A stretch of DNA of 64,000 bases, taken from contig NZ_CP064873.1 of the NCBI RefSeq assembly GCF_019056515.1, positions 2,604,001-2,668,000 of the forward strand, in the 5' to 3' direction. Positions 816-43,921 of this stretch are shown piece after piece. The position numbers and the translations under genes are program-made. Positions within the stretch are counted from its first letter, which is position 1; every line of letters starts with the position of its first letter. The notes below the pieces were generated by a model. It was not told the DNA's origin, did no database searches, and saw nothing but the letters and a program-made list of their open reading frames with translations. The stretch comes from Microbacterium paraoxydans. GTDB taxonomy: Bacteria; Actinomycetota; Actinomycetes; Actinomycetales; Microbacteriaceae.

Positions 816-891
816 GACCCACCCCTTTGCGTGCACCCCGGCCCCTTACGCCTGCACGCACGGGGCCGGAGGGCACGGAAGGGGGTGGGTC
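816..891. repeat. Family-1 palindromic intergenic element, copy 1
   Basis: This 76-bp element begins GACCCA and ends TGGGTC. It holds two direct units, CCCTTTGCG (823-831) and CCCCTTACG (842-850), whose starts are 19 bp apart, and two inverted units, CGCACGGGG (857-865) and CGGAAGGGG (876-884), again 19 bp apart. The 10-bp spacers pair at about 8 of 10 positions, so the whole element can fold into one long hairpin. It lies 6 bp beyond the stop codon of the minus-strand gene that ends at 898. There is no T-run that would make it a standard terminator. Confidence 0.85.
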
Positions 892-897
892 AAGGGT

Positions 898-1863
898 TCA
901 CCGGGCGAAGAGGCGGAAGGCACGGAAGTGCGCGTCGGCCGCGGCGAGGGAGGCGACGTGCTCGCTCGACACCCGGATCACCCGCCAGCCGGTGGTCCCG
1001 CGCACCCAGTCCTCGCGGATCTTCTCGTCGAGCACGACGCTCTCCGCCGTGCGGCCCCCGCGGTACTCGTCATCCAGGTACTTGTCCCGGCCGTCGCACT
1101 CCACGAAGGTGCGGGACTGGTCGACGGCGATGTCCATCCAGAACCGACCGCCGCGCGGTCCGTCCACCGGCACCTGCAGCCGCGGTCTGCCGAAGCCGAG
1201 CTGATGGAGCCGGTACCGCGTCACGCTCTCCAGAGGCAGTTTCGCGCGACCGTCGGCCAGGCCCACGATCCGGCGAGCCTGCACGATGCCGCGGAGCCGT
1301 GGACGGCGGACCCGATCCGCGAGGTCCGCCAGGAGAGCCTGCTCCGCGGTGTCGTCGAACTCCCACGGGTCACCGCCGACGAGGGCGAGCGCGGCATCGG
1401 CGGCCGCGAGGGCCGCCTCCGGAGCGACGGTCCGCGCGAGGTCCACCACGGTCCGGCCGAGAGAGGTGCAGCGGATGCCGTCGCGCTCCACGATGTCACC
1501 GGCGGGAACCGCGCCTTCGTGCCGGAGGATGCCCGGCGTGCTGTGCCGCTGGTCCGGCGAGGCCGTCACGTGGACCCTCGTCGGCCGCAGCCGATATAGC
1601 GGCAGTCCCCACAGCACCGCAGCCGAGGCATGCGAGAACACGGGCCGCGTCCCCGAGGCCGCGAGATCGGCGGCCACCACCTCCGCACGATGCCGGGACT
1701 CCGGGGCGAGCTCGCTCCAGGTCCGCAGCGCGAGGTACCACCCACGGCGCACATGATGCAGCTGCCGCCCTTCCACCGCGGCGTGGAGCGTCCGAGATCC
1801 CCAGCCCTCCTCCTCCAGCCGTCGACGACCGAGGAGCATCCCCCTGATCTCGTCCACGCTCAC
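898..1863 (-). CDS. AbiEi-like / DUF559-type endonuclease-domain protein
   Basis: This 321-residue protein looks like the widespread actinobacterial group with an N-terminal AbiEi-like winged-helix region (about 1-100: VDEIRGMLL, RGWYLA, SHASAAVLWGLPL) and a C-terminal nuclease fold related to DUF559/Vsr (about 230-320). In the C-terminal part, MDIAVDQ followed by FVECDGRDKY fits a PD-(D/E)XK active site. The GTG at 1863 was chosen because GGAGGGG lies 8-14 bases upstream and the frame further out is repeat-derived and low complexity. Its substrate is unknown. Related genes are often single and not part of a proven toxin-antitoxin pair. It is bracketed by two copies of the family-1 element. 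Confidence 0.7.
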   Translation of the reverse strand: MSVDEIRGMLLGRRRLEEEGWGSRTLHAAVEGRQLHHVRRGWYLALRTWSELAPESRHRAEVVAADLAASGTRPVFSHASAAVLWGLPLYRLRPTRVHVTASPDQRHSTPGILRHEGAVPAGDIVERDGIRCTSLGRTVVDLARTVAPEAALAAADAALALVGGDPWEFDDTAEQALLADLADRVRRPRLRGIVQARRIVGLADGRAKLPLESVTRYRLHQLGFGRPRLQVPVDGPRGGRFWMDIAVDQSRTFVECDGRDKYLDDEYRGGRTAESVVLDEKIREDWVRGTTGWRVIRVSSEHVASLAAADAHFRAFRLFAR

Positions 1864-1977
1864 CTGTCTCACCCCTCCGACTCTCCCCTCTCCTCTCGCC
1901 ACTCCCCCGCCCTCCCCGGTTTCTCCACACCCCTCTCTCCCCTCCCGCCCCCTGTGCAGGAACCGTCCTCCCCCGCC

Positions 1978-2053
1978 GACCCACCCCCTTGCGTTCGAGC
2001 CACCCCCTTGCGCGCGTGCGTAGGGGGCCGGGACGCACGCAAGGGGGTGGGTC
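1978..2053. repeat. Family-1 palindromic intergenic element, copy 2
   Basis: This copy has the same 76-bp GACCCA...TGGGTC frame. Its units are CCCCTTGCG at 1985-1993 and 2004-2012 and the inverted CGTAGGGGG at 2019-2027 and CGCAAGGGG at 2038-2046, giving spacings of 19, 15 and 19 bp. The outer arms extend further (CCGCCGACCCA with TGGGTCGGCGG). It is the only copy lying between divergently transcribed genes (1863 minus, 2113 plus). The rest of the 1864-2112 gap is C/G-skewed spacer in which I see nothing else. Confidence 0.85.
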
Positions 2054-2112
2054 GGCGGGAGGGGGCGGCGTGTACGACGGGAACGGGGGTGGGGGAGAGT
2101 TAGAGTCTTCTG

Positions 2113-2793
2113 GTGACCCCGGAACTCCAAGCTCGCATCGTCGCGGACTCACGCGACCGCGTGGCATGGATGAGGGCACGATCGCGCGGCATCACGGCCA
2201 CCGACGTCGCCGGGCTCACCAGCGAGCGCTCGATCGCCCGTGCTGCCGACGCCAAGCTCGGCGGCGGGCCGCGGTTCGGCGGCAACGCCTACACCGACCA
2301 CGGCCGGCGCCGCGAGCCGGAGATCGCCGCCTGGGTCGCGGCCACGCACGGCATCTTCCCCTCCTCAGCGCTGTTCCGCGCCGAGGTCGAGCACCGCCAC
2401 TTGGCTACGCCCGATGGCATCTCGGTGGACGCGGACGGCCGTGTCAGCCTCGCGGAGATCAAGACCACCAATAAGGCCTTCCGGGGGATCCCCCGCACCT
2501 ACCTGCGCCAGGTGTGGTGGCAGCAGCACGTGCTGGGCGCCGAGCGCACCCTGTTCGTCTGGGAGGAGCACGTCGACTTCTCCCCCGTCCACGACGAGCC
2601 CCGCTGCGTGTGGATCGACCGCGACGACCGCGAGATCGCCAAGCTCGTGGGGCTCGCCACCGACCTCATCGACGAGCTGTACCGCCGCACGACCGGACGC
2701 ACGGTCCCGGCCCGCTCCGCATCCCCGGCGGACAGCCGTCGGGAGCAGCTCCGCGAGCGCGACGCCTTCCGCGCCCTCGCCCTCGCCGACTGA
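2113..2793 (+). CDS. YqaJ-type viral recombinase/exonuclease family protein
   Basis: This 226-residue protein resembles the YqaJ/lambda-exonuclease group of PD-(D/E)XK nucleases. The visible motifs are GITATDVAGL near residue 27, a GRRREPEIAAW helix near 64-74 with the conserved Glu, and GISVDADGRVSLAEIKTT near 101-118, which supplies the Asp and Glu-x-Lys of the active site. Family members digest or process DNA ends and are frequent in phages, but stand-alone chromosomal copies are common in actinobacteria. The start is GTG at 2113; GGGGAGAG lies somewhat far upstream, so the ATG at 2170 is possible but would remove part of the first helix. No phage genes surround it. Confidence 0.75.
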   Translation: MTPELQARIVADSRDRVAWMRARSRGITATDVAGLTSERSIARAADAKLGGGPRFGGNAYTDHGRRREPEIAAWVAATHGIFPSSALFRAEVEHRHLATPDGISVDADGRVSLAEIKTTNKAFRGIPRTYLRQVWWQQHVLGAERTLFVWEEHVDFSPVHDEPRCVWIDRDDREIAKLVGLATDLIDELYRRTTGRTVPARSASPADSRREQLRERDAFRALALAD

Positions 2794-2823
2794 CCGCGCG
2801 GCGGCGATGCCGTCCCGGCCGCG

Positions 2824-3717
2824 TCAGGGTTCGCGAGCGAGCACCCGACGCGCCTCCCCCGCGACCTCGGACGCGATCGTGTCGAGGAGCGCCGAGCGCA
2901 GGTTCCACTGCTGCCAGTACAGCGCCACGCGCAGGATAGGACCGCCGAGCGCCACGAGTCCCGGCACCTCCTGCAGCCGCGGCACCATCCCCCAGCCGAG
3001 GCCGAGGCCGACGGCCAGCGCATAGTCGTGCGACGCCGGGACGTAGTGCCGGGGAACGCCGGCCGCCGGCACGCCCCGCGCGGCCAGCCACTCGTGCTGG
3101 AGGGTGTCGCGGCGGTCGAAGTCGACGAACGGCGCGTACGCCAGAGCATCGGGGGTCACGCCGTCCGGGAACCATCGGCGGGCGTAGGCGGGTTCGGCCA
3201 TGGCGCGGTACTCGAGCACGCCGAGGGGCGCGACCGTGCACCCCGCGACCGCCGTGGCTTCGCTCGTGACCGCCGCCATGACGGTCCCCGATTCGAGCAG
3301 GCGGGCGGTGAAGTTCTGATCGTCGCGGTGCAGGTCGACATCGATGTCGTGCGCGGCGGAGAGCCGGGCCATCGGTGCCAGGAACCAGGTCGCCATCGAA
3401 TCCGCGTTGACGGCGAGCGGCACGCTGATCCGCCGCCCCTCGGCGCTCCCCTCGATCCCGACTCCCGCGAGAGCATCCTCTTCGAGGAGGGCGATCTGCC
3501 GCGCGAGCCGCACGACGGACTCCCCCGCCTCGGTGAGGCGGACCGGCTTGCTACGCACGAGGAGGATCCGCCCGAGCTGCTGCTCCAGCGCCTTGAGACG
3601 CTGACTGACCGCGGACGGGGTAACCTGCAGCCGACGCGACGCGGCATCGAGAGTGCCCTCGTCGGCGACGGCGGCGAGCGTGGCGGCGAGCTCCGGGTCG
3701 ATCCTCACATCAGTCAT
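2824..3717 (-). CDS. lysG: LysR-family regulator of amino-acid export (LysG/ArgP type)
   Basis: This 297-residue LysR-type activator has an N-terminal winged helix (about 5-65: TLDAASRRLQVTPSAVSQRLKALE) and a C-terminal effector domain. It is divergent from a LysE/ArgO exporter with a 60-bp gap, the classic lysG-lysE layout in which the regulator activates the exporter when intracellular lysine, arginine or histidine is high. The pairing makes the function likely, but the effector specificity is not visible. Its ATG at 3717 is preceded closely by CATTAG and lacks a clear Shine-Dalgarno sequence, so the transcript may be leaderless. It converges on the YqaJ-like gene with only 30 bp between stops. 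Confidence 0.88.
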   Translation of the reverse strand: MTDVRIDPELAATLAAVADEGTLDAASRRLQVTPSAVSQRLKALEQQLGRILLVRSKPVRLTEAGESVVRLARQIALLEEDALAGVGIEGSAEGRRISVPLAVNADSMATWFLAPMARLSAAHDIDVDLHRDDQNFTARLLESGTVMAAVTSEATAVAGCTVAPLGVLEYRAMAEPAYARRWFPDGVTPDALAYAPFVDFDRRDTLQHEWLAARGVPAAGVPRHYVPASHDYALAVGLGLGWGMVPRLQEVPGLVALGGPILRVALYWQQWNLRSALLDTIASEVAGEARRVLAREP

Positions 3718-3777
3718 GCTAATGGTGCGGTAGGAATCTTCGCTGCGCCTGATGCTCCGCCCTCATAGGCTCGACAC
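3718..3777. promoter_or_regulatory. lysG-lysE divergent promoter region
   Basis: The 60-bp gap must hold both promoters and the LysG site. For lysE, TAGGCT at 3765-3770 lies 8 bases before the ATG, which fits a -10 box of a leaderless mRNA. For lysG, CATTAG lies just upstream of its ATG on the other strand. Neither gene shows a good ribosome-binding site. I see no clean dyad that can be assigned to LysG. Confidence 0.5.
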
Positions 3778-4431
3778 ATGCTCACCGTCCTCGCCGGTCT
3801 CGGCCTCGGTCTCTCCCTCATCGTCGCGATCGGCGCACAGAACGTGTTCGTGCTGCGTCAGGGCATCCGGCGCGAGCACGTCCTCGCCGTCGTGATCGTC
3901 TGCGCCCTCTCCGACGCCGTGCTGATCATCGCCGGTGTCGCGGGGCTCGGGTTCGTGCTGTCCGCCGCACCCTGGCTCGTCGTCGTGGCTCGCTGGGCAG
4001 GGGCGCTGTTCCTGCTCGGATACGGACTGCTTGCGGCGCGGCGGGCCTGGCGGGGCGGCGAGGAGCTGGTGGTCGACGGGGGCGACGCCCCGGTCTTCGA
4101 GGCGTCCGGGGGCACCGGCACGCTCACCCGCACCCGCCTCGCCCCGGTGATCCTCACGACGCTGGCGTTGACGTGGCTGAACCCGCATGTGTACCTCGAC
4201 ACGGTGCTGATGCTCGGGTCGATCGCGGCGACGCACGGGGACGAGCGGTGGCTGTTCGCGGCCGGGGCGGTCGCGGCGAGCATCCTCTGGTTCACCGCCC
4301 TCGGCTTCGGCGCCCGCTACCTCGGACGGTGGCTGCGCACCCCGCGCTCCTGGCGCATCCTCGACGCGGTGATCGCGGTCGTGATGATCACGCTGGCGGT
4401 GAGCCTCGTGCTCCCGGTGCTGGGCGGCTAG
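3778..4431 (+). CDS. lysE: LysE/ArgO-family amino-acid exporter
   Basis: This 217-residue membrane protein has the LysE signature near the start (GLSLIVAIGAQNVFVLRQGI) and six hydrophobic segments, and its length is normal for the family. It should export basic amino acids such as lysine or arginine across the cytoplasmic membrane by exchange for protons or ions. The loop around residues 85-115 is hydrophilic, and TWLNPHVYLDT (about 139-149) is the second conserved block. The divergent LysG-type gene supports the call. The end lies 4 bp from the stop of the opposing DUF1801 gene, with no visible terminator between. Confidence 0.9.
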   Translation: MLTVLAGLGLGLSLIVAIGAQNVFVLRQGIRREHVLAVVIVCALSDAVLIIAGVAGLGFVLSAAPWLVVVARWAGALFLLGYGLLAARRAWRGGEELVVDGGDAPVFEASGGTGTLTRTRLAPVILTTLALTWLNPHVYLDTVLMLGSIAATHGDERWLFAAGAVAASILWFTALGFGARYLGRWLRTPRSWRILDAVIAVVMITLAVSLVLPVLGG

Positions 4432-4435
4432 GCGT

Positions 4436-4801
4436 TCACCCGGCGTCGATCTGCGACACCCGCGCCCGGATGAGCGCGCGGACCGCCTCCGCCGGCAGGG
4501 GGTGCTCCGGCTGGAACCGGATCGTCCCCTTGTCGAGGCTGACCCCGGGGTGACCGGCGAGGAGGTCCGCCACGGCGGCGACCGCCTCGGGGCTGAACGG
4601 GTAGACGCCGATGTGCTTCTTCGCGCGCATCACCGAGAGCAGCGGCTTGCCGGCGTACACGAGCGCCGGCATGCCATAGCCGGTGCCCTGTGCCGCCTCC
4701 GGAACCTCCTCCGTGGCGATCGCATACACCCCATCGATCACCGCACGATCCGCGGCGTCGAGGTCGGTCAGGTAGTCGTCGATGGTGCCCACGCACCGCA
4801 T
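4436..4801 (-). CDS. DUF1801-family protein
   Basis: This small 121-residue soluble protein resembles the DUF1801/YdhG group: an N-terminal helix (IDDYLTDLDAADRAVIDGVY), the GYGMPALVY segment about residues 41-49, KKHIGVYPFS about 60-70 and a closing helix. The structural fold is known, but the biochemical role of most members is not; some are annotated as iron chaperones. The ATG at 4801 was chosen; a GTG at 4792 is also possible and only changes three residues. It is a single gene, convergent with lysE and separated from the ABC operon behind it. Confidence 0.72.
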   Translation of the reverse strand: MRCVGTIDDYLTDLDAADRAVIDGVYAIATEEVPEAAQGTGYGMPALVYAGKPLLSVMRAKKHIGVYPFSPEAVAAVADLLAGHPGVSLDKGTIRFQPEHPLPAEAVRALIRARVSQIDAG

Positions 4802-4832
4802 CCTGCCATCGAATCCCCTCGGGGTCGAGGGC

Positions 4833-5636
4833 TCACGCGCCGTCGAGGGGCCGGAGGATGCGGGTGAGGAACCGCTGCGTGCGCTCGTGCTGCGGAGCGC
4901 TGAACAGCTGGGCAGGTGGTCCCTGCTCCACGACGACGCCGCCGTCCAGGAAGAGCACATGATCGGCCGCCTCCCGTGCGAAGCTCAGCTCATGCGTGAC
5001 GACGGCCATCGTCCAGCCCTCGTCGGCGAGCTCCTTGATGACGAGCAGCACCTCTCCCACGAGCTCGGGGTCGAGCGCGCTCGTCGGCTCATCGAACAGC
5101 AGCAGGTCCGGCTGCAGAGCCAGGGCGCGCACGATGCCGACGCGCTGCTGCTGCCCGCCGGAGAGCTGATGCGGCCTCGCGTCGGCCTTGTCGGCGAGGC
5201 CCACCCGGGCGAGCAGGGCCTGCGCTTCGGCGACGACCTCCGCCTTCGGACGCCCCTGCACCCGCCACGGCCCCTCGATCACGTTCTCCAGCACCGTGAG
5301 ATGCGGGAAGAGGTTGTGGTGCTGGAACACCATCGCCGACCGATCGCGGAGCGCGAGCCGCTGCTGCTTCGCGACGCGGGGCTTCGGGCGGACCTCCGGT
5401 GCGAAGTCGATCTCCGGGCCCCCGGCCATCGCGATGGTGCCGGCGTCCGGCGTCTCCAGGCCGTTCAGAGCTCGCAGGACGGTCGTCTTCCCGGAGCCGC
5501 TCGGCCCGATGAGCACCACGACCTCGCCGCGGTGCAGGGTGAGGTCGAAGCCGCGGAGCACCTCGGTGGCGCCGAAGCTCTTGTGCAGGCCCCGTGCGGT
5601 GAGCAGCGGTCCGGTCGTGGGGTCAGTGCGCGACAC
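4833..5636 (-). CDS. Polar amino-acid ABC transporter, ATP-binding subunit
   Basis: This 267-residue ATPase powers an amino-acid importer of the GlnQ/TcyC type. The Walker A motif is GPSGSGKTT (about 43-51), the signature is LSGGQQQR (about 158-165) and Walker B with the catalytic Glu is [14 protein letters not shown]. The short insert about residues 80-95 ([13 protein letters not shown]) is longer than in GlnQ. It overlaps the permease by 14 bases and is the last gene of a minus-strand operon (binding protein, permease, ATPase). Confidence 0.92.
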
Positions 5637-6288
5637 GACTGTCGAGCCTCCTCTCCAGGGCGCTCTGCCCGAAGGAGAGCACCAGGCAGATCACCCAGTA
5701 GACCAGCGCCGCAGCCAGATACAGCACCATGAACTCGAGCGTGGTGGAGGCGATCTGCTGCGCCACCTTGAACAGCTCCGTCACGAGGATCAGCGACGTG
5801 AGGGAGGTGTCCTTCACGAGCGAGATGAACGTGTTGGACAGCGGCGGCACCGACACCCGGGCGGCCTGCGGCAGGATGATGCGGGTCAGCGTGCGGGTGC
5901 GGTTCATGCCGACCGTGTACGCGGCCTCCCACTGCCCCTTCGGCACCGAGAGGATCGCCGCCCGCACGACCTCGGCGCCGTAGCCGCCGACGTTGAGCGA
6001 GAGCGCGATGATGGCGCTCGGCCACGGATCGAGGGTCACCCCGACGGACGGCAGGCCGTAGAAGATCACGAAGAGCTGCACGAGCATCGGCGTGCCGCGG
6101 ATCACCGAGATGTAGAACCGCGCGATGCCGGACACCACCGGATGCACCGAGATCCGCATCAGCGCCATGCCGATCGCGATCACGAGCCCCAGCGCGAACG
6201 ACACCAGGGCGAGCGGGATCGTCGCCGTCAGCCCCGCCCAGGCGATCGGCCCGAGCGAGGAGAAGAAGAGCTCCCAGGGATTCTGCAT
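5623..6288 (-). CDS. Polar amino-acid ABC transporter, permease
   Basis: This 221-residue protein is a HisM/GlnP-family permease with about five membrane segments. The EAA loop, which contacts the ATPase, is present as GMNRTRTLTRIILPQAARVSVPPL (about 126-149). FYISVIRGTPMLVQLFVIFYGLP about 57-79 is another family hallmark. It follows the binding-protein gene by 3 bases and overlaps the ATPase gene, so the three are co-translated. Substrate specificity lies mainly with the binding protein. Confidence 0.92.
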   Translation of the reverse strand: MQNPWELFFSSLGPIAWAGLTATIPLALVSFALGLVIAIGMALMRISVHPVVSGIARFYISVIRGTPMLVQLFVIFYGLPSVGVTLDPWPSAIIALSLNVGGYGAEVVRAAILSVPKGQWEAAYTVGMNRTRTLTRIILPQAARVSVPPLSNTFISLVKDTSLTSLILVTELFKVAQQIASTTLEFMVLYLAAALVYWVICLVLSFGQSALERRLDSRVAH

Positions 6289-6291
6289 CGC

Positions 6292-7107
6292 CTACTGCGA
6301 GACGTCTTCGCCGAAGTACTTCTCGCTGATCTCGGCCAGGGTGCCGTCGGCACGGAGCGTGTCGAGGGCTTCGTCGACCGCATCGACGAGCGCCTCCTTG
6401 TCCTTCGTGAACACGAAGGCCTGCTCACCGGCATCATCGGTCTCCGCCGCGATCTTCAGACCCGTCGGGCTGTTGGTCGTCTCGTAGTCGAGGAACGTCA
6501 GCTTGTCGTTGACGGTCGCGTCCACCCGGCCCTGGCGGAGGAGCTCCACGGCCTGCGCCCACCCCTCGACGCCCTCGACCTTGGCGCCGGACTCGGTGGC
6601 CAGCTCGTACCAGTTGCTCGTGAGGGACTGCGCCGTCGTCTTGCCCTCGAGGTCGTCGAAGGACGAGATGGAGTCGTCGTCCTCCTTCACCACGATCACT
6701 CCGGGCGACACCGTGTACGGGGTGCTGAAGAGGTACTTCGCCTCGCGCTCCTCGTTGATCGACACCTGGTTCGCGATCACGTCGAAGCGGCCCGCGTCGA
6801 GACCCGCGAAGATCGCGTCCCACTGCGTCTCCTGGAAGTCGACCTTCAGGCCGAGCTCGTCGGCGACGGCCTGGATGATCTCGACGTCGTAGCCGGTGAG
6901 GTCGCCGGAGCCGCCGTCGTCGTGGAAGCTGAACGGGCGGTAGGTGCCCTCGGTCGCGACCGTCAGCGTGCCGTCCTTCACCAGGCCGAAGTCGGAGCCC
7001 GCGGCGCCCTCGCCGTCCGTGCTCGCGGGCGTGCTGGACCCGCTGCAGGCGGTCAGCGCCGCGGCGGCGACGACGAGTGCGGTGACGGCGATGAGACGAC
7101 GGGACAT
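6292..7107 (-). CDS. Amino-acid ABC transporter substrate-binding lipoprotein (cystine-like)
   Basis: This 271-residue family-3 solute-binding protein has a lipoprotein signal peptide with lipobox LTAC (Cys about 21). The ligand-binding block GTYRPFSFHDDGG...LTGYDVEII and the second lobe motif GRVDATVNDKLTFLDY are typical of polar amino-acid binders. The phrase DVIANQVSINEEREAKYLFSTPY resembles cystine-binding TcyA/FliY proteins, so cystine is a reasonable but unproven substrate. It is the first gene of its operon. An upstream region of about 60 bases before the rplA terminator carries its promoter, which I could not locate with confidence. Confidence 0.87.
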   Translation of the reverse strand: MSRRLIAVTALVVAAAALTACSGSSTPASTDGEGAAGSDFGLVKDGTLTVATEGTYRPFSFHDDGGSGDLTGYDVEIIQAVADELGLKVDFQETQWDAIFAGLDAGRFDVIANQVSINEEREAKYLFSTPYTVSPGVIVVKEDDDSISSFDDLEGKTTAQSLTSNWYELATESGAKVEGVEGWAQAVELLRQGRVDATVNDKLTFLDYETTNSPTGLKIAAETDDAGEQAFVFTKDKEALVDAVDEALDTLRADGTLAEISEKYFGEDVSQ

Positions 7108-7244
7108 GGACCCTCCTGGGGTGAGAAAGCGCGGGTGCGAGTTTACGCGACGACCGCGGGAACTCCCCTACAGTACGCGGCGCCTCCGACGTCCGCGCAT
7201 CGGATGACGCCGGATGTCGCGCGCCGAACCGCCCCGGGAACGCA

Positions 7245-7274
7245 GAACGCCCCCGGGCGGACCCGGGGGCGTTC
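7245..7274 (-). terminator. Terminator-like hairpin after rplA
   Basis: A perfect hairpin with arms GAACGCCCCCGGG and CCCGGGGGCGTTC and a 4-base loop lies about 30 bases downstream of the rplA stop. No long T-run follows on the minus strand, as is usual in high-GC actinobacteria. It should end the rplK-rplA transcript. Confidence 0.8.
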
Positions 7275-7304
7275 GGTGCGACAGGTGCGAGACCCGTCGA
7301 CGCG

Positions 7305-7994
7305 TCAGATGGCGTTGACGTCCAGCGGGATGCCGGGGCCGAACGTGGTCGACACCGCACCCTTCTGGATGTAACGACCCTTGGCGCTGGACGGCTTGAG
7401 GCGGACGATCTCCTCGAGCGCGGCGTCGATGTTCTCGTTCAGCTGCTCGGCCGAGAAGGAGGCCTTGCCGATGACGAAGTGCACGTTGGCGTGCTTGTCG
7501 ACGCGGAACTCGATCTTTCCGCCCTTGATCTCCTCGACGGCCTTGGCCGGGTTCGGAGTCACGGTGCCGGTCTTCGGGTTCGGCATCAGGCCACGGGGAC
7601 CGAGCACCTTGCCGAGACGGCCGACCTGGCCCATGAGCTCCGGGGTCGAGACCGCGGAGTCGAAGTTGGTCCAGCCGTCGGCGACCTTCTGGATGAGCTC
7701 GGCGCCGCCGACCTCATCGGCGCCGGCCGCGATCGCCGCCTCGGCCGCGGGGCCGGTGGCGAACACGATGACGCGGGCGGTCTTACCGGTGCCGTGGGGC
7801 AGGATGACGGTGCCGCGCACCATCTGGTCCGCCTTGCGGGGGTCGACAGCGAGCTTCAGCGCGACCTCGACGGTCGAGTCGAACTTCGCCGAACCGGTCT
7901 CCTTCGCGAGCGCGACGGCCTCGGACGGCGTGTAGAAACGGTCTGCCTCGATCTTCTCGGCGGCAGCCTTGTAAGCCTTGGACTTGGTAGCCAT
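7305..7994 (-). CDS. rplA: 50S ribosomal protein L1
   Basis: This 229-residue protein is L1, which forms the mobile L1 stalk and helps release the E-site tRNA. The conserved segments [17 protein letters not shown] (about 62-78) and [20 protein letters not shown] (about 124-143) are intact. The ATG at 7994 is preceded by GAGGAG at good spacing. It follows rplK by 11 bases in the standard operon. In many bacteria L1 also represses its own operon by binding the mRNA; no site is obvious here. Confidence 0.98.
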
Positions 7995-8005
7995 GATTAT
8001 TCTCC

Positions 8006-8437
8006 TCAGCCCTCGACCGTGATGCCCATGGAACGGGCGGTGCCGGCGATGATCTTCGAGGCGGCCTCGATGTCGTTCGCGTTCAGGTCGGCCTGCTTCT
8101 GCTCGGCGATCTGACGGACCTGGTCCTTGGTGATCTTGCCGACCTTGACGGTGTGCGGGGTGGCCGAAGCCTTCTGCACGCCGGCGGCCTTCTTGATGAG
8201 CTCCGCCGCGGGCGGGGTCTTCAGGACGAAGGTGAAGCTGCGGTCCTCGTAGACGGTGATCTCGACGGGGATGACGTTGCCGCGCTGCGACTCGGTCGCG
8301 GCGTTGTACGCCTTGCAGAACTCCATGATGTTGACGCCATGCTGACCGAGCGCGGGGCCGATCGGCGGCGCCGGGTTGGCGGCACCGGCGTTGATCTGAA
8401 GCTTGATCAGGCCGGTCACCTTCTTCTTCGGTGCCAT
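8006..8437 (-). CDS. rplK: 50S ribosomal protein L11
   Basis: This 143-residue protein is L11, which binds the GTPase-associated centre of 23S rRNA. The N-terminal proline-rich segment [20 protein letters not shown] (about 22-41) and the RNA-binding C-terminal domain are complete. The ATG at 8437 has GGAAAGGA upstream. It heads the rplK-rplA operon. A nusG terminator and a family-1 repeat separate it from nusG, so it is probably expressed from its own promoter. Confidence 0.98.
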
Positions 8438-8560
8438 TCTCTTTCCTTTCCTCGAGGCGGATGCGAGCATCCGCTTCTCCCACGGCTCCGGCCTCTCCGG
8501 CCCGTGGTCGTCTCTGTGCACGCCGAAGCGGCACACAAACCACGTAAGTCTACCTGATCA
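8438..8560 (-). promoter_or_regulatory. rplK promoter and structured leader
   Basis: The sequence between the family-1 element and rplK is non-coding. Read on the minus strand, TAGACT at 8547-8552 is a plausible -10 box. The leader then holds two hairpins, CCACGG...CCGTGG and GCGGATG...CATCCGC (about 8457-8475), before the ribosome-binding site. They could be the L1 target or a processing site; this is inference from position. Confidence 0.45.
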
Positions 8561-8573
8561 CTCCCCCACTCGC

Positions 8574-8649
8574 GAGCCGGCCCCTTGTGTGCGAGCCGGC
8601 CCTCTGCGCGCATCCTCAAAGGGCCGGGAGACACGAAAGGGGGTGGGTC
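8574..8649. repeat. Family-1 palindromic intergenic element, copy 3 (degenerate)
   Basis: This copy keeps the geometry exactly although the sequence has drifted. Its units are CCCCTTGTG (8581-8589), CCCTCTGCG (8600-8608), CTCAAAGGG (8615-8623) and CGAAAGGGG (8634-8642), spaced 19, 15 and 19 bp. The left end is GAGCCG instead of GACCCA, and the right end is the standard TGGGTC. It lies between the nusG terminator and the rplK promoter. Confidence 0.78.
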
Positions 8650-8660
8650 GGGGGAAAGAA

Positions 8661-8689
8661 AACGGCCGCCCCGGAAGAGGGCGGCCGTT
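8661..8689 (-). terminator. nusG intrinsic terminator
   Basis: Arms AACGGCCGCC and GGCGGCCGTT form a strong hairpin 12 bases after the nusG stop. On the minus strand it is followed by TTTTCTTTCC, making it a convincing Rho-independent terminator. It separates secE-nusG from rplK-rplA. Confidence 0.88.
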
Positions 8690-8701
8690 CTCGTGACAGT
8701 G

Positions 8702-9736
8702 TCAGATCATCTTGGTGACCTGGTCGAACGACAGCTCGACCGGGGTCTCGCGCTCGAAGAGCGAGACGAGGACCGTGAGCTTGCCGCTCTCCGGCTTGAT
8801 CTCGCTGATCGAACCGGGAAGACCCGCGAACGAGCCCTCCTTGATCGTGATGGTCTCGCCGACCTCGAAGTCGACCTCGGCGGGAAGCGGACGGGCGACG
8901 GCGACGCCGCCCTTGGCCGCGATGTTCTTGGCGGTCGGGACGTCCTTGACCTCGACGAGGGACTTCAGCATGTTGAAGGCCTCTTCGAAGCGCAGCGGCG
9001 TCGGGTTGTGGGCGTTGCCCACGAAGCCGGTGACGCCGGGGGTGTGCCGCACGACCGACCAGGTGTCTTCCGTCAGCTCCATGCGCACCAGCACGTAGCC
9101 GGGGATGCGCACGCGGGTGACCATCTTGCGCTGGCCGTTCTTGATCTCGACGACGTCCTCCATCGGGACCTCGACCTGGTAGATCTCGTCCTCGACCTCG
9201 AGCGTCGACTTGCGCTGCTCGATGTTCGCCTTGACCTTGCGCTCGAAGCCGGCGTACGAGTGGATGACGTACCACTTGCCGGGGAGCATGCGCAGGTCCA
9301 TGCGGAAGGCCTCGTACGGGTCTTCCTCGGACGCCGACTCGTCCTCGTCGGACTCGGCGGCGGGACGGTCGTCTTCGCCGTTCACGTCGGGCCCCTCGTA
9401 CGGGGTGACCTCGTCGGCCGCCTCGGCCTCCTGCTCCGCGACCTCTTCGGCCACGGAATCGTTGAGGACCTCGGCGGCGGCTTCGGACTCCGCGGCCTCG
9501 TCCAGGTTCAGAGCGTCGTTCACGATGGCGTCCGCCTCCGGGTCGTCGATGTCGATGTCGATGTCTTCCGTCTCCTGCTCGCCGTCCTCGTCCTCGACGT
9601 GGACCGCGACGTGCTCGGCAGAGGTGACCGAGAGCTCCTCCGCGGCGAGCACGTTGCCCTCCTGGGCCTCGTCCTCCTCGCTGGACTGCTCTGCGGCGGT
9701 CGCCCAGTCGGCGTCGTCGGAATATCGTTCAGACAC
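8702..9736 (-). CDS. nusG: Transcription termination/antitermination factor NusG
   Basis: This 344-residue protein couples RNA polymerase to Rho or the ribosome. The NGN domain starts at about residue 152 ([22 protein letters not shown]) and contains [11 protein letters not shown] and [14 protein letters not shown]-terminal KOW domain follows ([21 protein letters not shown]). The first 150 residues are an acidic, probably disordered extension rich in Glu, Asp and Ala with a DIDIDIDD run; such extensions are usual in actinobacterial NusG but this one is long. The GTG start at 9736 is the standard position after secE. Confidence 0.97.
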
Positions 9737-9778
9737 GTTGCTTCTTCTCCATAGCTGCGGCGGTCGCCGCGGGGGTCA

Positions 9779-10051
9779 TCAGCCAGGGATTCCGAACACG
9801 TAGTGCGTCAGGAGCCCGAAGACGTAGTCGAGACCGTAGACGATGCCCATGACGATCAGGACGAAGACGAGCACCACACCCGTGAACTTGAAAAGCTCCT
9901 TGCGGGTCGGGGTGACGACCTTGCGCAGTTCGGCGATGACCTGGCGGATGAACAGGGCGATGCCCCCGAAGAACCGGGAGAAGGGGTTGCCCTTCTTCTG
10001 GCGCGTGGCGCCGGCCGCGACGACGTCGCCGCGCGGTTCGTCCTGATCCAT
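9779..10051 (-). CDS. secE: Preprotein translocase subunit SecE
   Basis: This 90-residue protein is the single-span SecE of gram-positive bacteria. It clamps SecY in the membrane translocase. The amphipathic helix VIAELRKVVTPTRKELFKFT (about 38-57) and the following membrane helix (about 58-80) are the family signature. It lies between tRNA-Trp and nusG, the standard arrangement. Confidence 0.97.
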   Translation of the reverse strand: MDQDEPRGDVVAAGATRQKKGNPFSRFFGGIALFIRQVIAELRKVVTPTRKELFKFTGVVLVFVLIVMGIVYGLDYVFGLLTHYVFGIPG

Positions 10052-10090
10052 CCTGAATGTACCTTTCGTGTGTCAGCGTGCGCTGACGCG

Positions 10091-10163
<73 letters not shown>

Positions 10164-10355
10164 AGAGACCCGGAGGTCTCGGGGATGCCCTCCCCACCCT
10201 GTCACCGGCCGACGTCGTAGACGCCAGGCACGGCGAAAGAATGCAGAGAACAACTGCTCACCAAGCATACGGCATCGATCCGGTGGTGCCGAACAGGAAG
10301 CGGAACCGGCGTTGTTGCTAGGCTCGGCGGGCGGACGAAGCAGGAAGGGACGCAT

Positions 10356-12176
10356 GTGAGTGGGGATGTGCAGCAGTTCCAGGTGGACCTGCGCGGAGTC
10401 GTCGATCTGCTCAGCCGGCACATCTACTCCAGTCCCCGGGTCTATCTGCGGGAACTGCTCCAGAACGCGAGGGACGCGATCGCCGCGCGCCGTGAGGTCG
10501 ACGGCGGCGGCAGCCGCATCCGGATCACGCCGCTGACCGCGCAGTCGGGCGAGCTCGTGCTCCGCGACGACGGCGTGGGATTGACCGCCGCCGAGGTCGC
10601 CGATCTGCTCGCGACCGTCGGGCGCAGCTCCAAGCGGGACATCTTCGACCTCCCCCGGAGCGACTTCCTCGGCCAGTTCGGCATCGGGCTGCTGAGCTGC
10701 TTCATGGTCGCCGACACCATCGTCATCCGCTCCCGCAGCGCCAGAGGCGGCTCCGCGGTGGAGTGGACGGGCAGCGCGGACGGCACCTTCCGCGTCACGG
10801 AGATCGATGACGACCTCCCGATCGGCACCAGCGTGCACCTCGTGCCGCGCTTCGACGCCGACGAGCTGCTGCGGCCGGCGGCCGTGCACGACCTCGCGAC
10901 CACCTTCGGGGAGTTCCTGCCGGTGCGGGTGACCATCGACGCGCCCGGCGGGGACATCGATGTGACGCGCGAGCCTCCCTTCCTCGACCCCGCCGCCGAT
11001 GTCGAGGCGGCCGTGCAGTACGGTCGTGACCTGCTCGGGGCCGCCCCGCTGGACGTGATCCCGCTGAGCGAGCCGGCGACCGGGACGCAGGGCCTGGCGT
11101 ACGTCCTGCCCTTCGCTCCTCCGCCCGGCGCCCGGCAGGCGACCCGCATGTACCTGGGGCGTATGCTGCTGTCTGAGCGCGTCGACGACGTGCTGCCCGA
11201 CTGGGCCTTCTTCGTGCGCGCCGTCGTCGACTCCACCGGCCTCGCGCCGACCGCGAGCCGCGAGTCCCTCGTCGAGGACACGGCCCTGGAGCACGTCCGG
11301 GAGCAGCTCGGCGCCGGGATCCGCCGCTGGGTGCTCGAGCTCGGGCTGCGCGAACCGCATCGCCTCGCCCAGTTCGTCGCCGTGCACGAGGTCGGACTCA
11401 AGTCGCTGGTGCGTCATGACGAGGAGCTCGCGCGCTTCATCACGCGCTGGCTCACCGTGGAGACCACGCATGGCACGCTGCGGATCGGCGAGCTCGTGGA
11501 ACGGTACCCGCACGTGCGCTACGCCCAGACGGTCGACGAGTTCCGCCAGGTGGCGGGCATCTCGCCCTCGGACGAGGTGCTCGTCAACGGCGGCTACCTC
11601 TACGACGCGGACCTGATCCGCCTGCTCCCCGACCTCTACCCGCACGTCACGGTGGAGAAGGTCGACGTGACCGGGGAGCTCGATCGCCTCGACCCGCCGC
11701 CGCTCGACGACCGGGACATCGCGATGGCGCTGGAGTCCCGCGCCGGCGCCGTGCTCGCCGCCTCCGACTGCGCCGTCGTCGTCAGGGCGATCGATCGCCC
11801 CGAGCTGACCGGACTCTACGTCGCGGATCCCGAGGTCCTGCGCACGATCGACCGCGGGCGCACCAAGGGCATCGCGAGCACGCTCTGGGGCGGGGTGCTC
11901 GACCGGATCGATCAGACGCTCTCCTCCGCACGGGACGACGACCTCACGGCGCGACTGTGCCTGAACTGGTCGAACCGCGTCGTCCGCGCCCTCGTCCGCG
12001 TCGACGACGACGCCGTGTTCGCGCGCACGGTCCAGCTGCTCTACATCCAGGCGCTCCTCGCGGGACACCACCCGCTCTCGGACGCCGACCGGGCCCTCAT
12101 GACCAGCGCCCTGTCCGACCTCGTCTCGCTCTCCGCCGGCATCGAGGGGGACACGCTCCCCTTCGACGCGCGCTGA
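10356..12176 (+). CDS. Hsp90-family (HtpG-like) ATPase
   Basis: This 606-residue protein is a divergent HtpG relative. The GHKL ATP site is intact: YLRELLQNARDAI (about 30-42, with Glu33, Asn37 and Asp40), DDGVGL (71-76) and GQFGIG (106-111), followed by LSCFMVAD. The middle-domain TASRESLVED corresponds to the catalytic-loop region of HtpG. The C-terminal third is less similar to HtpG. The GTG start at 10356 has AGGAAGGGA upstream; the overlapping ATG is followed at once by a stop. A TPR-like gene follows after 28 bp, so the pair is probably co-transcribed. It may be a specialised chaperone and not the housekeeping HtpG. Confidence 0.85.
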   Translation: MSGDVQQFQVDLRGVVDLLSRHIYSSPRVYLRELLQNARDAIAARREVDGGGSRIRITPLTAQSGELVLRDDGVGLTAAEVADLLATVGRSSKRDIFDLPRSDFLGQFGIGLLSCFMVADTIVIRSRSARGGSAVEWTGSADGTFRVTEIDDDLPIGTSVHLVPRFDADELLRPAAVHDLATTFGEFLPVRVTIDAPGGDIDVTREPPFLDPAADVEAAVQYGRDLLGAAPLDVIPLSEPATGTQGLAYVLPFAPPPGARQATRMYLGRMLLSERVDDVLPDWAFFVRAVVDSTGLAPTASRESLVEDTALEHVREQLGAGIRRWVLELGLREPHRLAQFVAVHEVGLKSLVRHDEELARFITRWLTVETTHGTLRIGELVERYPHVRYAQTVDEFRQVAGISPSDEVLVNGGYLYDADLIRLLPDLYPHVTVEKVDVTGELDRLDPPPLDDRDIAMALESRAGAVLAASDCAVVVRAIDRPELTGLYVADPEVLRTIDRGRTKGIASTLWGGVLDRIDQTLSSARDDDLTARLCLNWSNRVVRALVRVDDDAVFARTVQLLYIQALLAGHHPLSDADRALMTSALSDLVSLSAGIEGDTLPFDAR

Positions 12177-12204
12177 CACCCCCGACTACCCGAAAGGGCC
12201 TTCC

Positions 12205-14997: not shown

Positions 14998-15006
14998 CGC
15001 GACACC

Positions 15007-15035: not shown

Positions 15036-15060
15036 GATGCGGATGCGGCGGAGGGCCGTG

Positions 15061-34294: not shown

Positions 34295-34363
34295 TGCACG
34301 ATCCGGCGACGGATGCACGATTCACCCGCCCCTCGGGTCGTGCACGCGGAACACCGTCGTGCA
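34295..34363. repeat. Family-2 palindromic element, copy 3
   Basis: Units TGCACGA at 34295-34301 and 34314-34320 and TCGTGCA at 34338-34344 and 34357-34363 are all perfect and show the same 19, 24, 19 bp spacing as the copies at 27 kb. The spacer sequences are different from those copies, so only the units and geometry are conserved. It lies 33 bp beyond the stop of the minus-strand gene ending at 34397. Confidence 0.85.
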
Positions 34364-37230: not shown

Positions 37231-38556
37231 ATGACGAACACCGCAGCGACCCCCACCCCGCGCCCCGCCGGCCTGCGCGCCGGAGACCAGGTCCAGACGG
37301 CCGCGGAGCTTCAGGAGATCTGGGACACCGACCCGCGGTGGGACGGCGTCGAGCGCACCTACTCCGCGGAGGACGTCATCCGCATCCGCGGCTCGGTCCG
37401 CGAGGACGCCACCCTCGCCCACCGCGGGGCGGAGAACCTCTGGAACCTCCTGCACACGGAGGACTACATCCGGGCTCTCGGCGCCTACACCGGAGGCCAG
37501 GCCGTGCAGCAGGTGCGCGCCGGGCTGAAGGCCATCTACCTCTCCGGCTGGCAGGTCGCCGCGGACGGCAACCTCGCCGGACAGACCTACCCCGATCAGT
37601 CGCTCTACCCCGCGAACTCGGTCCCGGCGGTCGTGCGCCGCATCAACAACGCCCTGCTCCGGCAGGACCAGCTCGAGCACGCCGAGGGTGAGATCACGCA
37701 GGACTGGCTCGCGCCCATCGTCGCCGACGCCGAGGCCGGATTCGGCGGACCGCTGAACGCCTACGAGCTCGCGCAGTCCCTCATCCAGGCCGGCGCCGCG
37801 GCCATCCACTGGGAGGACCAGCTGGCGAGCGAGAAGAAGTGCGGCCACCTCGGCGGGAAGGTGCTCGTGCCCACGCAGCAGCACATCCGCACGCTGAACG
37901 CGGCCCGTCTCGCGGCGGACGTCGCCGGCGTGCCGACCGTCATCATCGCCCGCACCGACGCCCTCGCCGCCGATCTGCTCACGAGCGACGTCGACGAGCG
38001 CGACCGGGAGTTCACCACCGGCGAGCGCACGTCCGAGGGCTTCTACCGGATCCGCCCGGGCATCGAGTCGGTCATCAGCCGCGGCCTCGCGTTCGCCCCC
38101 TATGCCGACCTGCTCTGGGTCGAGACCGGGGAGCCGGACATCGCGCTGGCCCGGGAGTTCGCCGCGGCGATCCACGCACAGTTCCCCGGTAAGCTCCTGG
38201 CCTACAACTGCTCGCCGAGCTTCAACTGGAAGCGCCACCTGTCGGACGCCGAGATCGCGACGTTCCAGCAGGAGCTGGCAGACCTGGGCTACAAGTTCCA
38301 GTTCATCACCCTGGCCGGGTTCCACGCCCTGAACCACTCCATGTTCGACCTCGCCCGCGGTTACGCCGAGCGCGCCATGAGCGCCTACGTCGAGCTGCAG
38401 GAAGCCGAGTTCGCCGCCGAGGCCGGCGGCTACACCGCCACCAAGCACCAGCGCGAGGCGGGCACCGGTTACTTCGACGTCATCTCCACCGCGCTCAACC
38501 CCGACAGCGCGACCCTCGCCCTGGCCGGCTCCACCGAGACCGCCCAGTTCCACTGA
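37231..38556 (+). CDS. aceA: Isocitrate lyase
   Basis: This 441-residue enzyme splits isocitrate to glyoxylate and succinate, the first step of the glyoxylate shunt used on acetate or fatty acids. The catalytic loop KKCGHLGGK (about 206-214) with its active-site Cys is intact, as are WEDQ and the C-terminal Mg-site segments ([12 protein letters not shown]). The length matches the short bacterial form. It is followed 108 bp later by aceB, with a family-3 element in between, and is divergent from ramB. Confidence 0.97.
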
Positions 38557-38563: not shown

Positions 38564-38643
38564 CCGAGACCCCCGGTTCTCGTCGAGACCCCGCCCCGCA
38601 CACGCCGGGAGCCCGGGGTCTCGACGACAACCCGGGGGCTCGG
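38564..38643. repeat. Family-3 palindromic element between aceA and aceB
   Basis: Units CGAGACCCC at 38565-38573 and 38584-38592 are followed by GGGGTCTCG at 38615-38623 and a variant GGGGGCTCG at 38634-38642. Spacings are 19, 31 and 19 bp. The 10-bp spacers are about 80% complementary, so the RNA would form a long hairpin. It starts 7 bp after the aceA stop and could stabilise aceA mRNA or lower read-through into aceB. Confidence 0.85.
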
Positions 38644-41397: not shown

Positions 41398-41461
41398 TGT
41401 CGATGTCTCGACGTTTCTGCGATCCTTGTCTGCACCCTGCGCCCCGACACCTGGAGGATCG

Positions 41462-42556
41462 ATGAAGATCGGCGTCCCGACCGAAGTCAAGAACAACGAG
41501 AACCGCGTCGCCCTCACCCCGGCCGGCGCCGATCGGCTCGTGCGGGAAGGGCACCGCGTGCTCGTGCAGTCGGGAGCCGGCGTCGGGTCGAGCATCGATG
41601 ACGACGCGTACCGCGCGGCCGGTGCCGAGATCGTCGCGACCGCCGCCGACGCGTGGGGCGAGGCCGACCTCCTCATCAAGGTCAAGGAGCCCGTGGCCGA
41701 GGAGTACGGCTTCCTCCGTCCCGACCTCACGCTCTTCACCTACCTCCACCTCGCGGCCGATCGCCCGCTGACCGAGGCGCTCGTCGCGGCCGGCACGACC
41801 GCCGTCGCCTACGAGACCGTGCAGCTGCCGGATCGCACCCTGCCGCTGCTCGTGCCGATGAGCGAGATCGCCGGCCGCCTCTCCGTCATCATGGGGTCCC
41901 ACTCGCTGCTGCGCTCGCAGGGCGGCCGCGGCATGCTGCTGGGTGGCATCGCCGGCACCCCGCGGGCGAAGACCGTGGTGATCGGCGGCGGCGTCGCGGG
42001 CGAGCACGCCGCCGCGAACGCGCTCGGACTCGGCTCCAAGGTCACCGTCGTCGACGTGGCGCTCCCCCGCCTGCGCGAGCTCGAACACCGCTACGGCGGT
42101 GCTCTGGAGACGCGCGCCTCCAGCCGGTACGACATCGCCGAGGAGCTGACGACGGCGGATCTCGTCATCGGATCCGTCCTGATCCCCGGCGCCGCGGCCC
42201 CCAAGCTCGTGACCGACGACATGGTCGCGGCCATGAAGCCGGGGTCCGTGCTCGTCGACATCGCGATCGATCAGGGCGGCTGCTTCGAGGGCTCCCGTCC
42301 GACCACGCACGATGACCCGACCTTCGCGGTGCACGACTCGATCTACTACTGCGTCGCGAACATGCCGGGCGCCGTTCCGACGACCGCGACCCGGGCGCTG
42401 ACGAACGCCACCCTCCCCTACGTCTCGGCGATCGCGGCCAAGGGCTGGGAGCGGGCGGCCTCCGACGAGGCTGCCCTCGCGAAGGGGCTCAACGTGCAGG
42501 GGGGACGCATCACCCTGGACGCCGTCGCCCAGGCGCACGGCCTCACGACCGACTGA
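41462..42556 (+). CDS. ald: Alanine dehydrogenase
   Basis: This 364-residue NAD enzyme interconverts L-alanine and pyruvate plus ammonia. It shows [20 protein letters not shown] at the start, the active-site Lys in LIKVKEPV (about 72-79), His in YLHLAADR (about 94-101), and the NAD fold [20 protein letters not shown]. The ATG at 41462 is preceded by GGAGGATC. The divergent Lrp-type gene probably controls it. The enzyme helps use alanine as carbon source and may keep redox balance when respiration is low. Confidence 0.95.
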
Positions 42557-42637
42557 CCTGCCGAACCCTAAAGAACCTCGGATCTTGGCGTCATCCCACA
42601 CCTCCCCCGCCGTATCGACCCGAGTACGCTCGTAACC

Positions 42638-43840
42638 GTGACCGAACGCGCTCCTCTCTCCCGCAAGCTGTCCGCCATCGCCGAGTCCGCGACCCTCAAG
42701 GTCGACGCCAAGGCCAAGGCCCTCAAGGCCGAGGGCAAGCCCGTCATCTCGTATGCCGCGGGCGAGCCCGACTTCGCCACGCCGCAGTTCATCGTGGATG
42801 CGGCGGCCGAGGCACTGGCCGACCCCGCGAGCTACCGGTACACCCCCGCTCCCGGGCTGCCGGCGCTGCGCGAGGCGATCGCCGCCAAGACGCTCCGCGA
42901 CTCCGGGCTCGAGGTCTCCCCCGGCCAGATCATCGTCACCAACGGCGGCAAGCAGTCGGTGTACCAGGCGTTCCAGGCCGTCGTGAACCCCGGCGACGAG
43001 GTGCTGCTGCCGGCCCCGTACTGGACGACCTACCCGGAGGCGATCCGTCTCGCGGACGGCACGCCCGTCGAGGTCTTCGCCGGCGCCGACCAGGAGTACA
43101 AGGTGACCGTCGAGCAGCTCGAGGCCGCCCGGACCGACCGCACGACGGTCCTCGTGTTCGTGTCGCCGTCGAACCCCACCGGCTCGGTGTACACGGCCGA
43201 GGAGACGAAGGCCATGGGCGAGTGGGCGGTGGAGCACGGCATCTGGATCATCAGCGACGAGATCTACCAGAACCTCACCTACGAGGGCGTCAAGGCGACC
43301 TCGATCGTGGAGGCCGTGCCGGAGGCCGCGAACCAGACGATCCTCGTCAACGGGGTCGCCAAGACCTACGCGATGACCGGCTGGCGCGTGGGCTGGATGG
43401 TGGGTCCGGCCGACGCCATCAAGATCGCCGGCAACCTGCAGTCGCACCTCACGAGCAACGTGAACAACGTCGCGCAGAAGGCGGCGATCGCGGCGCTCAA
43501 CGGTCCGCAGGACGAGGCCGAGAAGATGCGCGAGGCCTTCGACCGCCGCCGCCAGCTCATCGTGTCGGAGCTGTCGAAGATCGACGGACTCGTGGTCCCG
43601 AACCCGCTCGGCGCGTTCTACGTCTACCCCGACGTGCAGGGCCTGCTCGGTCGCACCTGGGGTGGCGTGACCCCGACCACCTCGCTGGAGCTCGCCGACC
43701 TCATCCTCGACCAGGCCGAGGTCGCGGTCGTCCCCGGCGAGGCGTTCGGTCCGTCGGGCTACATCCGCATGTCGTACGCGCTCGGTGACGACCAGCTCCT
43801 CGAGGGCGTGCAGCGCCTCCAGCGTCTGTTCTCCTCCTGA
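42638..43840 (+). CDS. aspB: Aspartate-type aminotransferase (class I)
   Basis: This 400-residue PLP enzyme is of the class Ib aspartate aminotransferase type: [13 protein letters not shown] (about 36-48), [13 protein letters not shown] (about 97-109), [10 protein letters not shown] (about 169-178) and the Schiff-base Lys in [16 protein letters not shown] (about 236-251). It would interconvert aspartate/glutamate and oxaloacetate/2-oxoglutarate. The start is GTG at 42638, with no clear ribosome-binding site and TACGCT nearby, so a leaderless mRNA is likely. In relatives this gene often lies next to tRNA-Trp/secE; here it is about 32 kb away. Confidence 0.88.
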
Positions 43841-43841
43841 C

Positions 43842-43921
43842 CCGAGACCCCGCTTTACCGCCGAGACCCCCTCGTACCTGCGCAGGTTCGAGGGGGTCTC
43901 GGCGTGAACGCGGGGTTTCGG
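43842..43921. repeat. Family-3 palindromic element after aspB
   Basis: Units CGAGACCCC at 43843-43851 and 43862-43870 and the inverted GGGGTCTCG (43893-43901) and GGGGTTTCG (43912-43920) are spaced 19, 31 and 19 bp, exactly as in the aceA-aceB copy. It begins 2 bp after the aspB stop and fills most of the gap to the convergent VOC gene, so it could also act as a two-way terminator. Confidence 0.87.

Follow-up and report, generated by a model that had tools for sequence, protein, structure and literature searches.

Repeat Elements and a Predicted Nuclease Gene in the Window

The DNA analysed here, referred to as the window, is a stretch of 64,000 nucleotides from Microbacterium paraoxydans (G000:C1:2604001-2668000; the source genome G000 comprises 3.59 Mb). 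It carries nine intergenic elements, each made of two direct copies of a short unit followed by two inverted copies (A-A-A'-A', below called a tetrad), and a gene for a two-part protein, predicted to join a DNA-binding half resembling the AbiEi antitoxin to a nuclease half of the Vsr/DUF559 type. Each repeat family studied here flanks one such AbiEi-Vsr fusion gene on both sides. The features are listed below; the elements carry no strand assignment.

816 to 891: family 1 element, 76 bp, 6 bp past the stop codon of the nuclease gene 898-1881
898 to 1881, minus strand: family 1 partner gene, with an AbiEi-like half (about residues 13-210) and a Vsr-type nuclease half (about residues 213-327)
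1978 to 2053: family 1 element, 76 bp, upstream of the nuclease gene 898-1881
8574 to 8649: family 1 element, 76 bp, in the nusG-rplK gap behind a retained terminator
17305 to 17380: family 1 element, 76 bp, 5 bp past the stop codon of gene 17386-18750
27180 to 27248: family 2 element, 69 bp, with TGCACGA units; its partner gene lies elsewhere in the genome (L022:7288-8124)
27351 to 27419: family 2 element, 69 bp, near-identical to 27180
34295 to 34363: family 2 element, 69 bp, with the family 2 pattern
38565 to 38642: family 3 element, 78 bp, 8 bp past the stop codon of gene 37231-38556; its partner gene is L028:8553-9533
43843 to 43920: family 3 element, 78 bp, occupying most of the gap between the convergent genes 42638-43840 and 43934-44371

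All nine elements had been described in a first-pass annotation of the window, and all lie where it placed them. Its claim of a 19-bp unit spacing in every half was recovered on rescanning for both halves of 8/9 elements; at 8574 the right half alone was recovered, the left units being more degenerate. The length of the centre is indeed constant inside each family. The start codon of gene 898-1881 is uncertain, as the open reading frame extends to 2130; the gene sits between the family 1 elements 816 and 1978. A search of Rfam at the gathering threshold returned a tRNA as the sole match in the window.

Partner Genes and Their Product

A profile built from five proteins finds exactly five genes in the genome, and all five (5/5) have their own repeats on both flanks, as established by reading. 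The family 3 partner gene L028:8553-9533, a homolog of the window gene (45% and 43% identity in two comparisons), lies between two family 3 elements. Three DUF559 genes, members of a family conjectured ahead of the search, have repeats on both of their flanks, likewise read directly, with the units TGCACGA (family 2), TCAGGC at 18 bp (family 4) and TCGCAG (family 5). The automatic scan caught a tetrad with a spacing of 18 or 19 bp and a score of at least 38 at 3/5 of these loci. By our own arithmetic, with about 30 elements spread over 3.59 Mb, the chance of finding one on each side of a given gene within about 300 bp is of the order of 1e-5.

The prediction for the protein comes from sequence models and fold comparison. 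The AbiEi models of PADLOC match the N-terminal half of the window protein with an E value of 4.3e-18. Fold matches comprise AbiEi (6y8q), Vsr (1cw0), a homing endonuclease (3r3p) and a DUF559-like protein (3hrl), the whole-half AbiEi alignments being loose (root-mean-square deviation of 4.6 over 170 and 7.3 over 171 residues). In the nuclease half, which we take to be of the EDxHD type, residues E218, D250, E261, D263 and K267 are invariant in 24/24 proteins of the clade that comprises families 1 and 3, in keeping with a conserved acidic active site. The PF04480 model scores above its cut-off for the proteins of families 2, 4 and 5 only; those of families 1 and 3 fall below it, as do the 24 proteins of the family 1/3 clade.

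Recurrence and Spacing in the Source Genome

All three families of the window recur across the 3.59-Mb genome. The family 3 unit pattern gives 32 + 33 matches and that of family 1 gives 9 + 9, vs. 0 for the reversed pattern in both cases, and the family 2 pattern gives 54 + 58 vs. 21 + 13. Unit-by-unit spacing was counted in 775 kb of own-genome stretches, partly picked for holding elements. A second unit copy lies at 19 bp in 29/30 cases for family 3, 34/58 for family 2, and 4/4 (CCCCTTGCG) or 9/15 (CCCCCTT) for family 1, while for family 4 (TCAGGC) it lies at 18 bp in 12/14. Family 5 (TCGCAG) is thin: 4/35 second copies are at 19 bp with no clear peak, and there are three exact unit pairs, two of them beside the gene.

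A scan independent of the unit sequences gives a divided picture. With 9-mers and up to 2 mismatches, the window holds 9 tetrads at a spacing of 19 bp and at most 3 at any other spacing; two shuffles gave 0 at 19. With 1 mismatch, 5/5 tetrads in 444 kb are at 19 bp, vs. 0 in one shuffle, 7 of the 19 stretches outside the window having been picked for family 1 matches. The 12 unselected stretches (240 kb) contain one tetrad at this setting, at 19 bp, and show no excess at 19 at looser settings (2 vs. 2.5 in shuffles for 9-mers with 2 mismatches). An excess at 19 bp over shuffled sequence is thus seen in the window scan and is missing from unselected stretches at the looser settings, so that the genome-wide case rests on the unit patterns. 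These patterns, together with the gene association, disfavour chance hairpins. A universal spacing of 19 bp is rejected, since family 4 of the same genome and several clades elsewhere use 18 bp.

The Association in Other Microbacterium Genomes

Homologs of the partner protein occur in 58/59 Microbacterium genomes, with 1 to 13 in each. When one locus was taken from each of 29 other genomes, repeats on the same strand close to the gene were most frequent at distances of 18 and 19 bp, with 63 and 30 pairs, respectively, in 29 kb of near sequence vs. 56 and 7 in 58 kb farther away. The far-flank count at 18 probably reflects codon rhythm. A larger set comprised 94 gene loci, 5 of the own genome and 89 blind, with strand-neutral flank tests and a tetrad threshold score of 40. 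Tetrads reaching it were found in 73/188 near flanks (33 at 18 bp, 32 at 19 bp and 8 at other spacings), 7/186 farther flanks and 0/188 shuffles. Among the blind loci, an 18/19 tetrad is present on one or both sides in 48/89 and on both in 15/89; in 14/15 of the two-sided loci the two sides share at least 7/8 unit letters, vs. 6% for sides of different loci. For 20 further loci of the family 1/3 clade, strong tetrads are present in 27/38 near flanks, all 27 at 19 bp, and in 0/37 far flanks; two or three of these genomes had shown elements next to the gene at an earlier point.

Both the geometry and the unit sequence go with the protein lineage. On a tree of the 94 proteins, 57 loci were labelled by spacing (29 at 18 and 28 at 19), leaving off 8 loci with another best spacing and 29 without a tetrad. 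The label changes 5 times, compared with a mean of 19.5 and a minimum of 13 in 300 shuffles. The likeness of units, out of 8 letters, averages 7.54 for protein pairs of at least 70% identity (13 pairs), 5.47 at 60–70% (76), 5.27 at 50–60% (425), 5.6 at 45–50% (45), 5.04 at 40–45% (102) and 4.65 below that (935). Neighbouring DNA is shared by descent between related species, which accounts for some of the unit similarity at high identity. Many units of the family 1/3 clade read CGAG followed by four variable bases (ACCC, TGCA, GACG, ATGA, TCCA, CCGC), and others differ.

Copy numbers peak in genomes in which the gene has a close relative. Eight genomes have a partner of at least 52% identity, a cut set after the data had been seen, and their family 3 matches number 51, 35, 48, 9, 5, 0, 3 and 10; the other 51 genomes have at most 8, and 39 of them have none (p = 7e-6). 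The reversed pattern gives 0 in all 59. The CGAGTGCA pattern, derived from clade flanks, was predicted beforehand for genomes G029, G033 and G047 and was found there 40, 26 and 12 times. It also occurs in 12/56 other genomes, 17 times in G042, 16 times in G004 and at most 4 times in the rest, and the reversed control gives 9 matches in 6 genomes.

Anatomy and Pairing of Family 3 Elements

Each half of a family 3 element consists of two CGAGACCCC units and a linker that mostly keeps G..TT..CG, and the centre measures 22 bp. For 31 family 3 elements of the source genome the two halves share one offset, and in 1539540 one half is more degenerate. Pairing was assessed in 30 pairs and one single half of this genome (the pair 389547, which belongs to a set of 21 elements taken with context, and the lone matches 389616 and 1235942 were left out), in 7 pairs of G029 with both halves perfect (pairs with a mismatched half left out) and in 9 pairs among the matches listed for G014 (halves without a listed partner left out).

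The centre arms pair by compensating changes, with 139/231 positions matching vs. 103.6 expected in the 21 elements with context, and no shuffle of 5000 reaching this value. The outside flanks are unpaired (43/105 vs. 45.2), and the element therefore seems to end at its outer units. Pairing of the linkers is at or below chance. At linker positions 10–16, 96/210 are identical in the source genome vs. 109.5 expected (p 0.009 for so few), 21/63 vs. 26.8 in G014 (p 0.03) and 27/49 vs. 26.8 in G029, or 144/322 vs. 152.7 when pooled (p 0.14); whole linkers of the 21 elements give 125/210 vs. 129 (p 0.24). The inner unit co-varies in the 30 elements of the source genome (262/270 vs. 251, with no shuffle of 5000 as high) and shows no co-variation in the 21 elements with context (180/189 vs. 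179), and the outer unit has no clear excess in either set. A paired stem as the selected feature of family 3 thus meets with mixed results across the linker, unit and centre tests. Long perfect palindromes are unstable, which may account for the imperfect pairing.

Genomic Position and Turnover

Most family 1 and family 3 elements stand directly behind stop codons. Of 56 coordinates, 53 were placed (21 of family 3, 16 of family 1 and 16 of family 2) relative to genes called by a simple script; 816 and 2920313 are near a stretch end, 2971721 is in no stretch, and a doubtful gene call covers the family 1 element 3304070. At most 25 bp separate the element edge from the nearest stop codon in 19/21 elements of family 3 and 11/15 of family 1. 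Convergent gaps contain 23/52 of the elements outside called genes, vs. 38/200 of all gaps of at least 80 bp (p 0.0004). A role in termination is compatible with the position of many elements behind stops.

Of the named relatives found, Microbacterium sp. LCT-H2 (L070) is the nearest, with NusG 100% identical and DNA 95.8% identical over 19.75 kb. Across window positions 1–19737, the partner protein is 94% identical between the two, and NusG, RplK, RplA and RplJ are 100% identical. The elements look more diverged than their flanks.

At the 17305 site, the window and L070 have the element, and L072, L076, L078 and L101 (4/23 of the relatives listed) have a plain terminator-like hairpin behind the equivalent stop codon. 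In the gap matching window 17264-17385, a different, GGTCGTTGAGCGAGCGAAGCGAGACGAAACGC-like repeat is present in L130, L142 and L145, at the equivalent gene end. In the nusG-rplK gap, the window retains the terminator and has the element after it, and some related species have other palindromes or none. The palindromes of this gap fall into several types, one in L075, L092 and L093, another in L076 and L078, and another in L090.

The partner gene itself is unevenly distributed. In the gap between gene 2170-2793 and rplJ, studied in 15 chosen relatives, L070 has the gene, L078, L086, L095 and L133 have homologs of 46–48% identity, and no partner homolog is present in L091, L100, L109, L111, L115, L121, L134, L136, L144 and L148. 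With homologs of 33–49% identity in or near equivalent gaps, the place looks as if it were a hotspot. Nuclease homologs were also noted in L118 (nusG-rplK) and in L100 and L138 (beside gene 2170-2793).

Comparison with Known Systems

The closest parallel is that of repetitive extragenic palindromes (REP) and REP-associated tyrosine transposases (RAYT). According to PMC2817692 and PMC3733652, the RAYT gene is flanked by inverted copies of its own palindrome, there is one family per gene, gene and repeat co-vary, element abundance tracks gene presence, and elements are often downstream of genes. The system described here likewise has a partner gene with its own repeats on both flanks, one family per gene, co-variation of the two, elements that often follow genes, and an abundance that tracks the gene, with G004, G042 and G002 as exceptions. 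Sequence comparison suggests that the partner gene and its elements may evolve fast, as PMC2817692 describes for RAYTs. The difference lies in the enzyme, which has AbiEi-like and Vsr-like folds, and in the units, which form tandem tetrads of 18/19 bp. A RAYT as partner is ruled out, as the genome has no Y1 transposase (PF01797 is absent, and the control search was positive in 5/14 genomes). By eye, no consistent GTAG/CGTC tag is found at the ends of 21 family 3 elements; CGTC directly precedes 2/4 family 1 elements in the window. PMC3733652 links REP palindromes of the GTAG type to a single enzyme class and states that CGTC REPs have no transposase of their own.

The second parallel is the AbiE type IV antitoxin (AbiEi; Rv2827c), to which the N-terminal half is matched both by sequence models and by fold. 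According to PMC7319586, two 23-bp inverted repeats are the target of AbiEi, and for Rv2827c a pair of this kind occurs twice in succession. The present protein differs by its extra nuclease half, sites dispersed genome-wide and a spacing of 18/19 bp, and no AbiEii neighbour was found among six neighbour proteins scanned at three of the five loci. Unlike Vsr/DUF559 nucleases and the homing endonuclease I-Bth0305I, the nuclease half here is joined to an AbiEi-like half and accompanied by dispersed tetrads. Searches of the open-access literature turned up no account of this gene-repeat pairing. The data point to an undescribed partnership of repeats and a nuclease, like REP/RAYT and distinct from it.

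Proposed Explanation and Alternatives

We consider it fairly probable that the elements serve as cognate sites, dispersed over the genome, for a family of AbiEi-Vsr fusion proteins and that they spread in the fashion of REP/RAYT, with the nuclease acting at hairpins. Each 18/19-bp unit would be the site of one DNA-binding half, and a tetrad would therefore accommodate four copies of the protein, arranged with two-fold symmetry. At the hairpins of the element, the nuclease half may copy the sites, convert them or only bind them. Gene and elements would spread and be replaced over time, much as REP/RAYT, settling at gene ends where the hairpin could assume the job of the terminator, and elements may outlast the gene as orphans. 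A likely history would lead from AbiEi-type promoter operators, through fusion of the protein to a Vsr-type nuclease, to dispersed sites.

The first-pass annotation had attributed the shared spacing to one machine that reads geometry. One kind of protein does accompany the elements, a predicted nuclease with a DNA-binding half; it is, however, a homologous family with one member per repeat family, and the spacing is 18 bp in some clades. The proteins, one homologous member per repeat family, must therefore recognise unit sequence in addition to geometry. The suggestion of a nuclease-type machine came close, and missed that the elements are dispersed partners of genes, one of which (898-1881) lies inside the very interval that it covered.

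Several observations weigh against the explanation by dispersed cognate sites. Genome G002 has a gene at 53% identity and zero family 3 matches. Conversely, the 16 and 17 CGAGTGCA elements of G004 and G042 occur without a family 1/3-type gene at E 1e-30 and are either orphans or sites of an unrecognised gene. No 18/19 tetrad reaches the threshold at 41/89 blind loci. Family 2 lies farther from stop codons, with 4/16 elements within 25 bp, these distances being rough as its start coordinates are partly approximate. The variable positions of 21 family 3 elements match at a mean of 14.0 of 30 vs. 14.4 in column-shuffled sets, and the best pair matches at 24/30, with shuffled maxima averaging 20.9 and reaching 25. 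The 21 are thus no recent copies of one another, and family 3 gives no sign of simple copy-and-paste from a master. A tblastn search returned no plasmid match for the family 2 protein and no phage match for the window protein. In other Microbacteriaceae genera the excess of tetrads is small (9/56 near flanks, six of them at 18/19, vs. 3/56 far flanks), and homologs from across the phylum have no clear excess (4/56 near vs. 1/55 far). In this sample, the pairing of gene and element is therefore mainly a Microbacterium trait, and a phylum-wide reach is unsupported by the flanks of distant homologs.

A more specific version, which we regard as possible and propose tentatively, is that of a previously undescribed kind of repeat system, selfish or domesticated, in Microbacteriaceae. 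Here, the AbiEi-Vsr proteins would use a modular code for their sites (CGAG followed by four changeable bases, in much of the family 1/3 clade, and a spacing of 18 or 19 according to clade) and would rewrite gene ends, the hairpin replacing host terminators, by converting or seeding sites and not by pasting one master.

The strongest alternative holds that the host keeps the sites: the proteins would be regulators or chromosome-organising factors, their operators spread on purpose and each kept by selection, with the nuclease half secondary. Unit letters are nearly perfect while linkers and centres vary, as if selected, although finding elements by their units biases the set towards intact ones. 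AbiEi autoregulation acts via inverted repeats in promoters, according to PMC7319586, whereas elements of families 1 and 3 are behind stop codons. For at least three pairs of neighbouring elements, the distance in G000 matches that in G029, which shows that stable inheritance of elements is possible; yet sites differ between related species, the gene is at its place in some relatives only, and the nuclease residues are invariant. We consider host-kept sites rather unlikely.

A type IV AbiE-like toxin-antitoxin or anti-phage defence system, with the nuclease half as toxin and the dispersed sites holding or buffering the protein, would fit the PADLOC match of the N-terminal half and the nuclease fold. 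However, six neighbour proteins at 3/5 loci include no AbiEii-like match (one of the six has no Pfam match at all), and homologs in nearly every genome, at up to 13 per genome, are many for a defence gene, which leaves this reading improbable. That the elements are ordinary transcription terminators, alike by chance and unrelated to the nuclease genes, is hardly credible: they are GC-rich hairpins, many right behind stop codons, and one stands where relatives have a terminator-like hairpin, but the fixed 18/19 spacing, the units shared by both sides of genes elsewhere, a spacing that tracks protein phylogeny, linker pairing no better than chance, and, by eye, no T-run behind 21 family 3 elements all weigh against it.

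If the explanation by cognate sites of AbiEi-Vsr proteins is true, partnerships between an enzyme and its dispersed palindromes would have arisen more than once, this second enzyme being unrelated to the first. It would also suggest a function worth examining in AbiEi-like/DUF559 genes whose role is unknown, supply dozens of natural protein-site pairs from which DNA recognition could be decoded, and have a bearing on terminator turnover.

Apparent Recent Copying within Family 2

The family 2 elements 27180 and 27351 are 171 bp apart and have 2 differences over 69 bp, with some matching bases immediately outside, and the intervening DNA matches poorly. By this comparison, 27351 seems to have arisen by recent copying over a short distance and not by simple tandem duplication.

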